Part shown: positions 13,936 through 53,738 of the stretch, piece by piece
How positions within the stretch are numbered: position 1 is the first letter of the stretch
Layout of the letters: each line of letters starts with the position of its first letter
The notes under the pieces: model-generated
What the model was told of the DNA's origin: nothing
Seen by the model: only the letters and a program-made list of their open reading frames with translations
Databases searched by the model: none
Translations under genes and position numbers: made by a program
Assembly (NCBI GenBank): GCA_036493475.1
Contig: DASXPS010000019.1
Span: forward strand, 1-64,000
DNA: 64,000 bases
Source: Sporichthyaceae bacterium
GTDB lineage: Bacteria; Actinomycetota; Actinomycetes; Sporichthyales; Sporichthyaceae
Reading direction: 5' to 3'

Positions 13936-14174
13936 GGCGTGCTCCTCGGAATTCGTTGTCCCGGGTCGTCGTGGCGGGTGCACTCGACGTGAACCGGGAC
14001 CGGCACAGTCTGCCAGGGACTGCAACACCAGGGAAAACGCCGGACCGAACACGGGCATTCCGCCGTGCCCGAATCGTCCCATTAGCCCGATCGGACCATT
14101 CTTCGCCCGTTTCGGTAGCTTCACCGCTACTTTTTAGCCACTCCAGCACCAGTGGAAACGGGGAAGGACGCACG
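13936..14174. other. Divergent intergenic region, rpmE and DUF642-like gene
   Basis: This 239-bp region holds only the opposing starts. It carries the GAGGAG site for rpmE at its left end and GGAAGGA for the plus-strand gene at its right end. Promoters for both genes must lie here, but I see no convincing -35/-10 pairs, riboswitch or long repeat. Confidence 0.4.
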
Positions 14175-21813: not shown

Positions 21814-21865
21814 CGTTGCGTCCGAAGAAGAGTGTCCGCGCACCCACAGTTCTTCGGACGTAAGG
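21814..21865. repeat. Dispersed palindromic element, copy 1 (argS-lysA)
   Basis: Arms CGTCCGAAGAA (21819-21829) and TTCTTCGGACG (21850-21860) flank a 20-nt loop. Outer flanks CCGTTG and TAAGGG extend the pairing imperfectly. The loop is 15/20 identical to the reverse complement of the loop of copy 2, so the copies share ancestry and lie in opposite orientation. It sits between the argS stop and the lysA ribosome site. It could end argS transcription or be a mobile repeat remnant. Confidence 0.8.
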
Positions 21866-32597: not shown

Positions 32598-32651
32598 CCG
32601 TTGCGTCCGAAGAAGTGGGGGTACCCGGACACTGTTCTTCGGACGCAACGG
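32598..32651. repeat. Dispersed palindromic element, copy 2 (imuB-dnaE2)
   Basis: The best-preserved copy: perfect 17-bp arms CCGTTGCGTCCGAAGAA (32598-32614) and its complement (32635-32651), loop 20 nt, itself containing GGGTACCC. It begins directly at the imuB stop codon. A partial tandem duplicate of the left arm, CCCCGTTGCGT, lies just left of it, at about 32580-32590. It may form a hairpin that shapes the imuB-dnaE2 mRNA. Confidence 0.85.
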
Positions 32652-34305: not shown

Positions 34306-35097
34306 TTACTCAGCCCGTCGCCGCCCTACCCACCCCCTTACGTCCGAAGAACCGCGCGCTATAGCGACCGTTCCTTCGGCCGCAAGCGAGGGGGGCCCGA
34401 CGTCGGACAGGTGCAGGTGCACGCTGCGTTCCGCACCGGGCACGCCGCGGCCGCGCGCGGACACCCGCAACCGCCGGGAGCGCAGCCGACCGTGCCCCGC
34501 GCCCAGGCCATCCCAGGCCAGCTCGTCGCAGGACAGCCGCAGGTCCGCCCCCGGCCAGGGGCCCAGCGAGACCAGCACGCTGCCGTGGTGCCGGGCCCGA
34601 CCGGCCAGCGCCCGGGCGTCACCGGGGGTGAAGCCCTCCGGTGGGCGCACGGCGACCAGGTCGAAACCGTCGAACAACGCCCCCACCACGCGGGACCAGG
34701 CCCGGCCGGGCGCGGGGATCAACGCCAGTCGGGCCAGCTCCACCCCCGTCTCCGCCGCCGCCGCCAATCCGACGCCCGGCGCCCCGACCAGCGCGCACCA
34801 GGAGCCCGTCGCCGAGGCCTCGGCGAGCAGCAGCAGCGCGAGCGTGCTCCCCCCGGCCGCCACCCGCTCGTGGTAGCCCGCGCCGTCGACGTCCCCGTCC
34901 CGCCGGGAGTGCCCGAGCGAGACCGGCCCGGTCAGCCCGACCTCGACCGTGCTCCCCTTGCGCAACCCGCCACCCATCAGCAACGGCCGCAACGCCGCCA
35001 CCACCGGCAACACGGGCGCCACCGGCGCGACCGCAGACGCCCGCCGCACGGCACCGTCCGGCAGCCGGGCAAGAAGTTCGGCGACGTCGGCGGGCAC
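34306..35097 (-). CDS. imuA': ImuA' (RecA-like mutasome accessory protein)
   Basis: A 263-aa protein with a degenerate RecA/ImuA fold. LLMGGGLRKGSTVEVGLTG and STLALLLLAEASATGSWCALVGAPGVGLAAAAE match the ImuA' layout; the Walker A is eroded. In mycobacteria ImuA' is required with ImuB for DnaE2-dependent mutagenesis. The final 20 or so codons run through dispersed palindrome copy 3, so the C-terminal tail (ARGSSDVRGWVGRRRAE) is probably repeat-encoded. The start is GTG 35097, close to a LexA box. No strong Shine-Dalgarno is seen. Confidence 0.88.
   Translation of the reverse strand: MPADVAELLARLPDGAVRRASAVAPVAPVLPVVAALRPLLMGGGLRKGSTVEVGLTGPVSLGHSRRDGDVDGAGYHERVAAGGSTLALLLLAEASATGSWCALVGAPGVGLAAAAETGVELARLALIPAPGRAWSRVVGALFDGFDLVAVRPPEGFTPGDARALAGRARHHGSVLVSLGPWPGADLRLSCDELAWDGLGAGHGRLRSRRLRVSARGRGVPGAERSVHLHLSDVGPPSLAAEGTVAIARGSSDVRGWVGRRRAE
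34334..34386. repeat. Dispersed palindromic element, copy 3 (3' end of imuA')
   Basis: A degenerate copy: left arm TTACGTCCGAAGAA (34338-34351), right arm TTCCTTCGGCCGCAA (34371-34385). The loop contains a perfect CGCTATAGCG palindrome. It lies inside the 3' end of imuA', implying the repeat inserted there and supplied a new stop. Confidence 0.65.
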
Positions 35098-35106
35098 ACC
35101 CCATCA

Positions 35107-35132
35107 TCGAACACACGTTCGGATGATCGCAA
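35107..35132 (-). promoter_or_regulatory. SOS promoter of imuA' with LexA box
   Basis: TCGAACACACGTTCGG at 35107-35122 matches the LexA consensus in 11 of 12 fixed positions. On the minus strand TTGCGA (35127-35132) is a plausible -35, and GATGAT a -10, placing the box in the spacer, as at imuB. GTG of imuA' follows 5 bases after GATGAT. Confidence 0.8.
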
Positions 35133-35143
35133 TGCCCCGATCG

Positions 35144-35223
35144 CTTGCGCATGTCATGCGCCAATGGGTCTTGTCATCCGTCTGGACGCCTGACAAGACC
35201 GTTCTGCCCATGACATGCGCAAG
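35144..35223. repeat. 80-bp concentric three-tier palindrome
   Basis: Three nested perfect inverted repeats share one centre (35183.5): outer arms CTTGCGCATGTCATG (35144-35158/35209-35223), middle arms GGTCTTGTCA (35167-35176/35191-35200), inner CGTC/GACG (35179-35182/35185-35188). The tiers are separated by matched 8- and 2-nt non-pairing gaps. Each outer arm is itself palindromic around T (GCGCATG-T-CATGCGC). It lies between the LexA box of imuA' and helR, in non-coding DNA. Confidence 0.85.
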
Positions 35224-35245: not shown

Positions 35246-35270
35246 AAAAAAGGGGCGGAGCCGCAGCTCC
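35246..35270 (-). terminator. Possible intrinsic terminator on minus strand
   Basis: Read on the minus strand, GGAGC-TGCG-GCTCC (35257-35270) is followed by GCCCC and six T (35246-35251). This has the stem-plus-U-tract form and would shield the imuA' promoter from leftward transcription. It could also be a plus-strand leader hairpin of helR. Confidence 0.45.
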
Positions 35271-35299: not shown

Positions 35300-35318
35300 G
35301 GGGCTTGCGGCAAGGCCC
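35300..35318 (+). promoter_or_regulatory. Rifamycin-associated element (RAE) upstream of helR
   Basis: GGGGCTTGCGGCAAGGCCC matches, base for base, the 19-bp RAE reported upstream of rifamycin-inactivating and helR genes in actinomycetes. It extends to a 27-bp imperfect inverted repeat (35296-35322). It lies 31 bp before the helR ATG, just downstream of a -10-like TATAGC at 35287. Confidence 0.9.
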
Positions 35319-35349
35319 CGGTCGGGCCGCACAATCGCGGAGCTGAGCC

Positions 35350-37527
35350 ATGAACCGGGGGGACGTGGACAACCTGACCAGCAGCGCATTCGAGCTTCCC
35401 GAACACCTGTCCGCCAAAGCGGATCCGACGCTGATCGGTGACGACGAACGGCACTTCGCGGCGATCGGCGCCGCGCTCGCGGAGTCCATCGCCGACCTCT
35501 CGCAGCGCCTGGCCGACCAGCTGCGGGCGCCCGGCGCTCGGGGCCAGGCGGTGATGGAGCGGGACCTGGAGGTGCACCGGCTGACCTCCCGGCTGAACGC
35601 GCTGCGCCGCTACGGCCTGGACCTGTGCCTGGGCCGGATGGTGCCCGCCGACGGCTCCGCGCCCGTCTACATCGGCCGGCTCGGACTCACCGACCCCACC
35701 GGGGACCGACTGCTCGTCGACTGGCGCTCCCCGGCCGCCGAGCCGTTCTTCGGCGCCACCCACGCCACCCCGATGGGCCTGGCCAGCCGGCGCCGCTACC
35801 GCTGGACCAAGGGCAGGATCAGTGACTACTGGGACGAGGTCTTCACTCCCGACGGGCTGGACGGACACGCCGCGCTGGACGACCAGTCCGCGTTCATCGC
35901 CAGCCTGGGCAGCACCCGCAGCGACCGGATGCGTGACGTCCTGGCCACCATCGCCGCCGACCAGGACGCCATCATCCGGGCGAGCGCCAAGGGCGCGCTG
36001 ATCGTGGACGGGGGTCCCGGCACCGGCAAGACCGTGGTCGCGCTGCACCGCGCCGCGTACCTGCTGCACGCCGACCCGCGCCTGCAACAGCAGCGCCGCG
36101 GCGGGGTGCTGGTGGTCGGCCCGAGCCGGCCGTACCTGACCTACGTCGCCGACGTGCTGCCCAGCCTCGGCGAGGAGGGCGTGCGCACCTGCACGCTGCG
36201 CGACCTGGTGCCCGAGGGCGCCACGGCCCCGATCGAGGACGATCCCGCGGTCGCGCGGCTGAAGGCCGACCTGGACCCGCCGGCGGTGCTCGAGGCAGCG
36301 GTGGCGATGTACGAGGAGCCGCCCACCAAGGCCATGGCCATCGACACCCAGTGGGCCGAGGTCCAGCTCACCGTCGGTGACTGGGCGGAGGCGTTCGGGG
36401 CCGCCGAGTCCGGCATCGCGCACAACGACGCCCGCGAGGTCATCTGGGCCGAACTCCTCCGGCTCCTCATCGAGAAACATGACGCCGAGGTGCCGGCGAA
36501 CCAGGTACGTCGGGTGCTCAACGAGCACAGCGACCTGCGCGAGGCGTTCAACCGAGCCTGGCCACTGCTCGAACCGCCCGACATCGTCGGCGACCTGTGG
36601 TCCGTGCCCGCCTACCTGCACAAGTGCGCGCCGCACCTGGCGGTTGACGACGTGCGCCGACTGCAGCGCCCCGACGCGGCGGCCTGGACGGTGTCCGACC
36701 TGCCGCTACTGGACGCCGCCCGGCAGCGGATCGGCGACCCCGCGATGGCGCAGACCAAACGGCGGCGCACCGCGCAGGCCGCGGCCGCCGCCGAGGAGAT
36801 GCAGCGGGTCGTGGAGACCATCATCGAGGCCGACCACGACGGCGAGGCCGCGGTGACCATGCTGCGCGGCGAGGACCTGGTGGCCGCGCTGGCCGACGAG
36901 TCCGTACTGTCCGTGCTCATCGTGGACGCGCTGGCCGGCCCGTTCGCGCACATCGTGGTTGACGAGGCGCAGGAACTGACCGACGCGGAGTGGCAGATGC
37001 TGCTCTCCCGCTGCCCGTCGCGCAGCTTCACCGTGGTCGGCGACCGCGCCCAGGCCCGCCACGGGTTCACCGAGTCCTGGCACGAGCGGCTCAAGCGGGT
37101 CGGCTTCGACCACCTGAACCTGGCCACGCTGAGCATCAACTACCGCACCCCGGCGGAAATCATGGCCGAGGCCGAGCCGGTCATCCGCGCGGTGCTCCCG
37201 GATGCCAACGTGCCGACGTCGATCCGCAGCAGCGGCATCCCCGTCCGACACGGATCGGTGGCCGAACTGCCGTCGATTCTCGACGCGTGGCTGGCGGACA
37301 ACATCGAGGGAATCGCTTGTGTCATAGGCGATCCGCGCGTCCAGCCCACCCGCCGCATCCGCTCGCTGACCCCGGAGCTGGCCAAGGGTCTGGAGTTCGA
37401 CCTGGTCGTGCTCATCGACCCGGAATTGTTCGGCACCGGCATCGAGGGCGCGGTGGACCGCTACGTCGCGCTGACCCGCGCGACCCGGGAACTCGTCATT
37501 CTCCGTACGCCGGACCCGTCCGACTGA
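35350..37527 (+). CDS. helR: HelR/HelD-type RNA polymerase-rescue ATPase
   Basis: A 725-aa superfamily-1 helicase-like protein. An N-terminal coiled-coil arm (about 33-92) precedes a split motor: Walker A GGPGTGKT at 221-228, Walker B HIVVDEAQELTD near 534-545, motif III VVGDRAQARHGF, and a C-terminal motif V/VI region (DRYVALTRATREL). HelD proteins push arms into RNA polymerase channels and recycle stalled enzyme; Streptomyces HelR displaces bound rifamycin. The RAE upstream supports the HelR subtype. ATG 35350 has GGAG 8 nt upstream. The AhpD-like gene follows after 61 bp and may be co-transcribed. Confidence 0.92.
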   Translation: MNRGDVDNLTSSAFELPEHLSAKADPTLIGDDERHFAAIGAALAESIADLSQRLADQLRAPGARGQAVMERDLEVHRLTSRLNALRRYGLDLCLGRMVPADGSAPVYIGRLGLTDPTGDRLLVDWRSPAAEPFFGATHATPMGLASRRRYRWTKGRISDYWDEVFTPDGLDGHAALDDQSAFIASLGSTRSDRMRDVLATIAADQDAIIRASAKGALIVDGGPGTGKTVVALHRAAYLLHADPRLQQQRRGGVLVVGPSRPYLTYVADVLPSLGEEGVRTCTLRDLVPEGATAPIEDDPAVARLKADLDPPAVLEAAVAMYEEPPTKAMAIDTQWAEVQLTVGDWAEAFGAAESGIAHNDAREVIWAELLRLLIEKHDAEVPANQVRRVLNEHSDLREAFNRAWPLLEPPDIVGDLWSVPAYLHKCAPHLAVDDVRRLQRPDAAAWTVSDLPLLDAARQRIGDPAMAQTKRRRTAQAAAAAEEMQRVVETIIEADHDGEAAVTMLRGEDLVAALADESVLSVLIVDALAGPFAHIVVDEAQELTDAEWQMLLSRCPSRSFTVVGDRAQARHGFTESWHERLKRVGFDHLNLATLSINYRTPAEIMAEAEPVIRAVLPDANVPTSIRSSGIPVRHGSVAELPSILDAWLADNIEGIACVIGDPRVQPTRRIRSLTPELAKGLEFDLVVLIDPELFGTGIEGAVDRYVALTRATRELVILRTPDPSD

Positions 37528-53694: not shown

Positions 53695-53738
53695 GCGTCC
53701 GAAGAAGCGTGAGCTATGGCTCACGGTTCTTCGGACGC
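53695..53738. repeat. Dispersed palindromic element, copy 4 (fadB-ECH)
   Basis: Perfect 12-bp arms GCGTCCGAAGAA (53695-53706) and TTCTTCGGACGC (53727-53738) flank a 20-nt loop. The loop itself pairs (CGTGAGC/GCTCACG), so the whole forms a long near-continuous stem. It lies between fadB and the enoyl-CoA hydratase gene. Confidence 0.85.

Follow-up and report, generated by a model that had tools for sequence, protein, structure and literature searches.

A concentric palindrome between imuA' and helR probably belongs to a lineage-specific family of dispersed palindromic repeats

In the genome of a Sporichthyaceae bacterium, the divergent genes imuA' and helR are separated by a 252-bp gap that holds an 80-bp palindrome, which raises the question whether such an ordered sequence serves its two neighbours or belongs to something more widespread. 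The stretch of DNA analyzed here (64,000 nucleotides, referred to as the window) had been subjected to a sequence-only reading, which offered a multi-dimer operator, a cruciform and a MITE-like remnant as possible explanations. The features of the locus are as follows.

34306–35097, minus strand: imuA' (NCBIfam NF058630), left and divergent neighbour, with which the imuA'-imuB-dnaE2 group begins
35107–35122, no strand: LexA-type box TCGAACACACGTTCGG, assigned by sequence and consensus, separate from the element
35144–35223, no strand: whole palindromic element, a copy of family A (aligned unit 35145–35222)
35147–35161, plus strand: left outer arm GCGCATGTCATGCGC, self-palindromic, a motif that elsewhere in the genome is also found solitary
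35162–35166, no strand: left spacer, fixed in length and nearly free in sequence
35167–35200, no strand: central dyad GGTCTTGTCATCCGTC-TG-GACGCCTGACAAGACC, with the TG centre at 35183–35184
35201–35205, no strand: right spacer, fixed in length and nearly free in sequence
35206–35220, plus strand: right outer arm GCCCATGACATGCGC, inverted relative to the left arm, the arm centres being 59 bp apart
35257–35270, minus strand: hairpin GGAGCTGCGGCTCC that resembles a terminator, with a T run after it, in the interval separating the element from helR
35300–35319, no strand: palindrome GGGGCTTGCGGCAAGGCCCC resembling a rifamycin-associated element (RAE), upstream of helR and distinct from the element
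35350–37527, plus strand: helR (NCBIfam NF041254 at 1205 bits, cut-off 750), right neighbour

Around position 35183.5, consecutive pairs were found at offsets 2–5 (4 bp), 8–17 (10 bp) and 26–40 (15 bp), which bears out the three exact inverted repeats with a common centre that had been read from the sequence. The symmetric unpaired gaps described along with them are only partly present: offsets 6–7 are unpaired and form the 2-nt gap, but three of the eight offsets 18–25 do pair, so the 8-nt gap is partly paired. Likewise, the left outer arm is self-palindromic around one T as had been stated, while the right arm is so with one mismatch; the four occurrences of TGTCA/TGACA are all in place. Pairing extends to 32 of 40 symmetric positions, and a repeat search reported the element as a single inverted repeat of 39 nt with 82 % complementarity. 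When all centres of the 64-kb window were scored with arms of 40, the element was the top-scoring one with 32 matches, whereas the highest score in 100 Markov-1 versions of the window was 27 and the mean of the maxima 25.0. This comparison and the recurrence of the element across the genome rule out a chance origin, as the earlier reading had suspected, and its presence at 15 places is the strongest argument against chance.

These places were located in the genome of the window (G000, 4.27 Mb in 217 contigs), where a BLAST search with 100 bp around the element gave 26 matches at 14 places including the window. A sequence-only model built from 14 rows, with places counted at E < 1e-14 on at least one strand, extended this to 15 distinct places including the window copy, hereafter called family A (contigs C10, C14, C19, C35, C62, C74, C93, C108, C158, C181, C194, C197, C201, C204 and C210). 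The output of the model consisted of full copies and solitary arms only, the five weaker rows (E 0.14–0.74, four places) being portions of solitary arms. Except for the C74 copy, which lacks the left arm and was omitted, all copies align free of gaps over 78 columns in the consensus order TGCGCATGWCATGCGCAA, spacer, GGCCTTGTCAKGCGTC, YR, GACGCCTGACAAGGCC, spacer, TGCGCATGWCATGCGC. Outer arms (GCGCATGWCATGCGC) and central dyad (CTTGTC...GTC-YR-GAC...TGACAAG) are well conserved, with a mean divergence from the consensus of 9 % in the arms and 13 % in the core versus 41 % across the ten columns of the spacers (p 5e-5 by permutation); despite this divergence, spacer length is invariant across the 14 aligned copies. 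Between copies, spacer identity amounts to 0.42 against 0.26 expected from composition, and judged by this excess the copies of family A share descent.

Position in a gap between divergent genes and operator-like symmetry would suit a local operator for the SOS operon, helR or both. The fourteen further copies, however, lie beside unrelated genes, with flanking families comprising zincin/DacB, GPDPase-membrane/IF-2B-like, periplasmic-binding-like, metallophosphatase/transpeptidase, RuvA with YebC nearby, MetK/PriA, KsgA/GHMP kinase, RibD/Rpe, AsnC/helicase-like, AurF, AMP ligase, TetR/acyl-CoA dehydrogenase, FAD oxidoreductase and aminotransferase. Genes were called from frame composition and backed by family matches; the frames upstream of the copies L010 and L012 gave no Pfam match. 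With neighbours as unrelated as these, the copies do not represent a regulon. TetR-type genes stand beside three sites (L019, L032 and L038), which we judged to be a coincidence. LexA/SOS operators follow a TCGAAC(N4)GTTCGA-type consensus, and by this consensus we take 35107–35122 to be the LexA-type box of imuA'; it stands apart from the element, which itself does not carry such a box. The same applies to the RAE, described in PMC10719064 as a 19-bp palindrome shortly downstream of the helR promoter: the RAE-like sequence of this locus is found at 35300–35319 and not in the element. Furthermore, arm and core motifs were found in none of 12 loci when helR, ksgA and metK were inspected in the relatives G001–G004, so the helR loci of all four relatives are without the element. 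As a switch for these neighbours, the multi-dimer operator put forward initially is therefore highly improbable, and we do not think that the element specifically controls the antibiotic-resistance gene helR or the DNA-repair genes imuA'-imuB-dnaE2.

Outside its own genome, the element gave zero BLAST matches in 59 other actinobacterial genomes, including one of the same genus and three of the same family. The 17-mer of the arm, allowing up to two mismatches, matched 28 times in the genome of the window and 0–2 times per genome in 29 others, where its reversed control likewise matched 0–2 times per genome. The relatives G001–G004 are distant, their HelR proteins being 68–70 % identical. Lack of conservation in relatives, which had been named as speaking against the earlier reading, thus applies at the species level, but conservation is strong between the copies within the genome. 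Plasmid and phage records contained no match to the element, so that a phage or plasmid origin was rejected, and in viral contigs the arm 17-mer was seen in 5 stretches and the core in 0, about chance by our own estimate. A pattern scan of genome contigs returned 35 stretches with one match each from scattered phyla; as we estimate about 30 for chance, occurrence in other named species was rejected. Among open-licence PMC papers, searches for arm, core and the strings of a 42-bp family described below brought up nothing relevant, and no account of family A among actinobacterial palindromic repeats was found.

To see what is constrained in the element, we compared pairing between its two halves across the aligned copies with column shuffles. 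Pairing was observed in 88.6 % of cells versus 86.9 % in the shuffles, 11 of 500 of which were as high, and pairs changed on both sides numbered 4 against 4.1 in the shuffles, the main two-sided change being an exchange of T-A for A-T or the reverse, found in four copies at the centre of the arm. Covariation for a three-hairpin structure was no better than for one long hairpin, both being only marginally above shuffles, and RNA structure was thereby ruled out as the main constraint. Such weak covariation means that the constraint acts no less on the sequence than on pairing, which leaves room for a protein reading the element genome-wide. The element could accordingly be a chromosome-wide site for a nucleoid, segregation or global regulatory DNA-binding protein of the host, with three dyads at fixed helical spacing that are kept by selection and not by mobility. 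Constrained sequence blocks separated by free spacers of invariant length point in this direction, as do two-sided pair changes no commoner than in shuffles, and solitary arms could act as weaker sites. Blocks kept this well, with spacers between them that vary in sequence but not in length, also resemble protein-binding sites under selection more than insertions in decay. Against such a site speak the unrelated neighbours without a regulon, the lack of the element in the rest of the genus and family, a related copy within gcvP (see below) and the spacer sequence that the copies have in common by descent, so that we regard it as rather unlikely.

Five sequences from four copies, the window copy being taken on both strands, all gave RNA folds below their shuffles, with z-scores from −3.9 to −12.5 and values of −8.8 and −9.8 for the two strands of the window copy; a cruciform or hairpin, the former among the initial suggestions, is possible at the element by base pairing. 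Nine of the 15 copies (L009, L010, L012, L013, L014, L015, L017, L020 and L021) are found at a reading-frame stop, overlapping it or following it at a distance of up to about 25 bp. Strong hairpins in all five folds and this preference for gene 3' ends would agree with an RNA element that acts in transcripts as terminator, processing site or stabilizer and is possibly a co-opted repeat. It would also agree with palindromes detected de novo in samples of three genomes (464 kb of G000 including the window, 283 kb of G001 and 400 kb of G002), where noncoding ones favour convergent over divergent gaps: by our own sums, convergent gaps contained 16 in 39 kb, tandem gaps 23 in 142 kb and divergent gaps 3 in 37 kb, with one extra at a sample edge, 27 called coding and not all of the palindromes being repeats. 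Different palindromes, moreover, follow metK in the relatives. However, a search for intrinsic terminators, in which a T run comes after a G+C-rich hairpin, found neither a T run nor a terminator-like site at the element, strong as its hairpin is, three copies including that of the window (with L011 and L019) lie between divergent genes, and covariation is slight. An RNA element thus appears unlikely; for the remaining copies L016, L018 and L033, the gene context was assigned on one side only.

Parts of the element are also used independently. The arm motif CGCATGWCATGCG occurs 41 times in the genome at up to one mismatch, compared to 5 times for its reversed control, and besides full elements there are solitary arms, for instance at C7, C20, C46, C147 and C181:19712, as well as a third arm outside the full element of C158. 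In a family B, the arms of family A surround a different core (CGCCCGG...TCCGGGTTTGCCG), with copies at C120 and C168, whose arms are 60 bp apart, and a C69 copy with a decayed left arm. The C168 copy (L037, about 1465–1545) lies in frame within a glycine dehydrogenase (GcvP) reading frame, in the variable linker that joins the two halves of GcvP; this frame aligns to solved GcvP on both sides of the linker, where it is about ten residues longer as counted from the alignment. No transposase was seen among the reading frames examined beside solitary arms. Two weak arms of C12, 1.35 kb apart, were considered as IS or transposon ends and rejected: by eye, the frames between them do not look like a transposase but resemble a short protein and a flavin protein of luciferase-like type.

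Taken together, we consider the element to be probably one copy of a lineage-specific, dispersed and non-autonomous palindromic repeat of REPIN/MITE-like type. Family A is multi-copy, uniform in architecture, modular and restricted to its lineage. The gap-free plan of its copies, their shared descent, the reuse of arms alone and with another core, the family B copy in the GcvP frame, unrelated neighbours, the frequent position at stop codons, absence from the relatives searched and the other palindrome families of these relatives all argue for a small mobile or selfish repeat. Against it stand the three copies between divergent genes, the free spacers of fixed length, the lack of a target-site duplication and a search for the Y1/RAYT domain that yielded no copying enzyme (see below). 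Copying and recognition are the most likely origin of this pattern: an enzyme, perhaps now lost, may have copied the repeat as a unit by recognizing the palindromic arms and the core, which would thus be the parts read by the copying enzyme or by a host protein. Copies would then persist at sites of least harm, often directly after stop codons, and the transcribed element would form a long hairpin, which may protect or terminate transcripts in the way suggested for REPs. The MITE-like remnant was therefore the closest of the three initial options, except that about 15 well-kept copies are present and not a single remnant.

Dispersed bacterial palindromic repeats are already known as a kind, and family A is a variant new to it. 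Palindromic repeats copied by RAYT transposases have been described mainly in proteobacteria. Like REPINs and BIMEs, in which inverted REPs are paired and associated with RAYT transposases, family A is dispersed, multi-copy, mostly extragenic and lineage-specific, and it consists of two inverted self-complementary units that also occur singly. It differs in its number of about 15 copies, its rigid 59-bp spacing, a conserved third palindrome between the units and consensus arm ends without the GTAG tetranucleotide of the palindrome foot. A search for the Y1/RAYT domain (PF01797), the one transposase class covered, was negative in the genome of the window (0 of 1) and positive in 5 of 14 control genomes, so a RAYT-driven REPIN was rejected. 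Family A resembles MITEs in being short and non-coding, with inverted terminal repeats and a hairpin if transcribed, but it consists solely of inverted repeats and a full-length parent transposon was not seen. At the outer edges of 13 copies, no direct repeat of 3–9 bp indicative of a target-site duplication was found, the listed hits falling inside arms or spacers. The relatives are too distant for an empty site to be aligned, their ksgA-ispE and metK gaps not aligning with those of the window's genome. Rickettsial palindromic elements (RPE) can sit in frame inside genes, as the family B copy does in gcvP; here, sequence and host are different and a single intragenic copy was seen. Di Nocera et al. 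2013 (PMC3733652) mention RPE and describe CGTC-tagged REPs as stem-loops of 20–40 bp with an unpaired CGTC tag, found mainly in alpha-Proteobacteria, mostly downstream of genes and in some cases intragenic, with no dedicated transposase known. Family A shares with them the palindromic repeats, for which no dedicated transposase is known, and the placement mostly downstream of and sometimes in genes, whereas its unit has 78 bp and its CGTC lies within the paired core and not in an unpaired tag.

The palindromes detected de novo in the samples of G000, G001 and G002 form further dispersed families, which makes family A one of several palindrome populations in the clade. Of 98 genomes searched for the 42-bp family CGTCCGAAGA-N22-TCTTCGGACG, G000 contains 15 members, G002 17, G003 5 and G004 1, and the other 94 contain none; its length is always exactly 42 bp within a search range of 30–54. 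Its inner 22 bp are characteristic of the genome in question and pair no better than shuffled within G000 or G002. In the window it is found at the following positions.

21819–21860: 42-bp family copy
32604–32645: 42-bp family copy
53696–53737: 42-bp family copy
about 34341–34382: decayed copy

Several palindromes are thus present among the SOS genes, with one copy of this family situated between imuB and dnaE2 and the decayed one within the 3' end of the imuA' reading frame. The arm-core-arm plan might even be the substrate of a recombinase or transposase that recognizes the two arms and the core, with its central TG/CA, as three palindromes set at a fixed helical spacing; actinobacteria of the family Sporichthyaceae would then carry several such fixed-length populations (78 bp and the 42-bp CGTCCGAAGA family) without RAYT, as a repeat class with its own copying enzyme, a proposal we consider unlikely. 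With a rigid and well-conserved palindrome family in an actinobacterial genome where no RAYT domain was found, and relatives that have families of their own, the spread and persistence of transposase-less repeats become testable in one small clade.

Several other families were noted in passing. G000 contains the family CTGTCATACG.GGGGCGTCA...TGACGCC..CGTATGACAG around L125 18947, L131 13262, L129 16960 and L086 1490. The family CCCGAAAGCGCAGAAC...GTTCTGCGCTTTCGGG was seen at L134 around 9080, at L139 around 1299 and 2396 and, in G002, at L115 around 16199 and L116 around 15152, meaning that similar palindromes occur in two genera of Sporichthyaceae. Near-perfect palindromes make up the families CTTCTGCTGCCTGTCCCAC... 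of G001 (L145 around 18748, L146 around 7063 and 9869, L163 around 7487) and AAGAAAGGGTGACACCCCTTACTGCGCAGTAAGGGG... of G002 (L109, L112, L114 and L101) and G003 (L099). The window furthermore contains an L31-Actinobacteria ribosomal protein leader (Rfam RF03158) at 13957–14003 on the minus strand.
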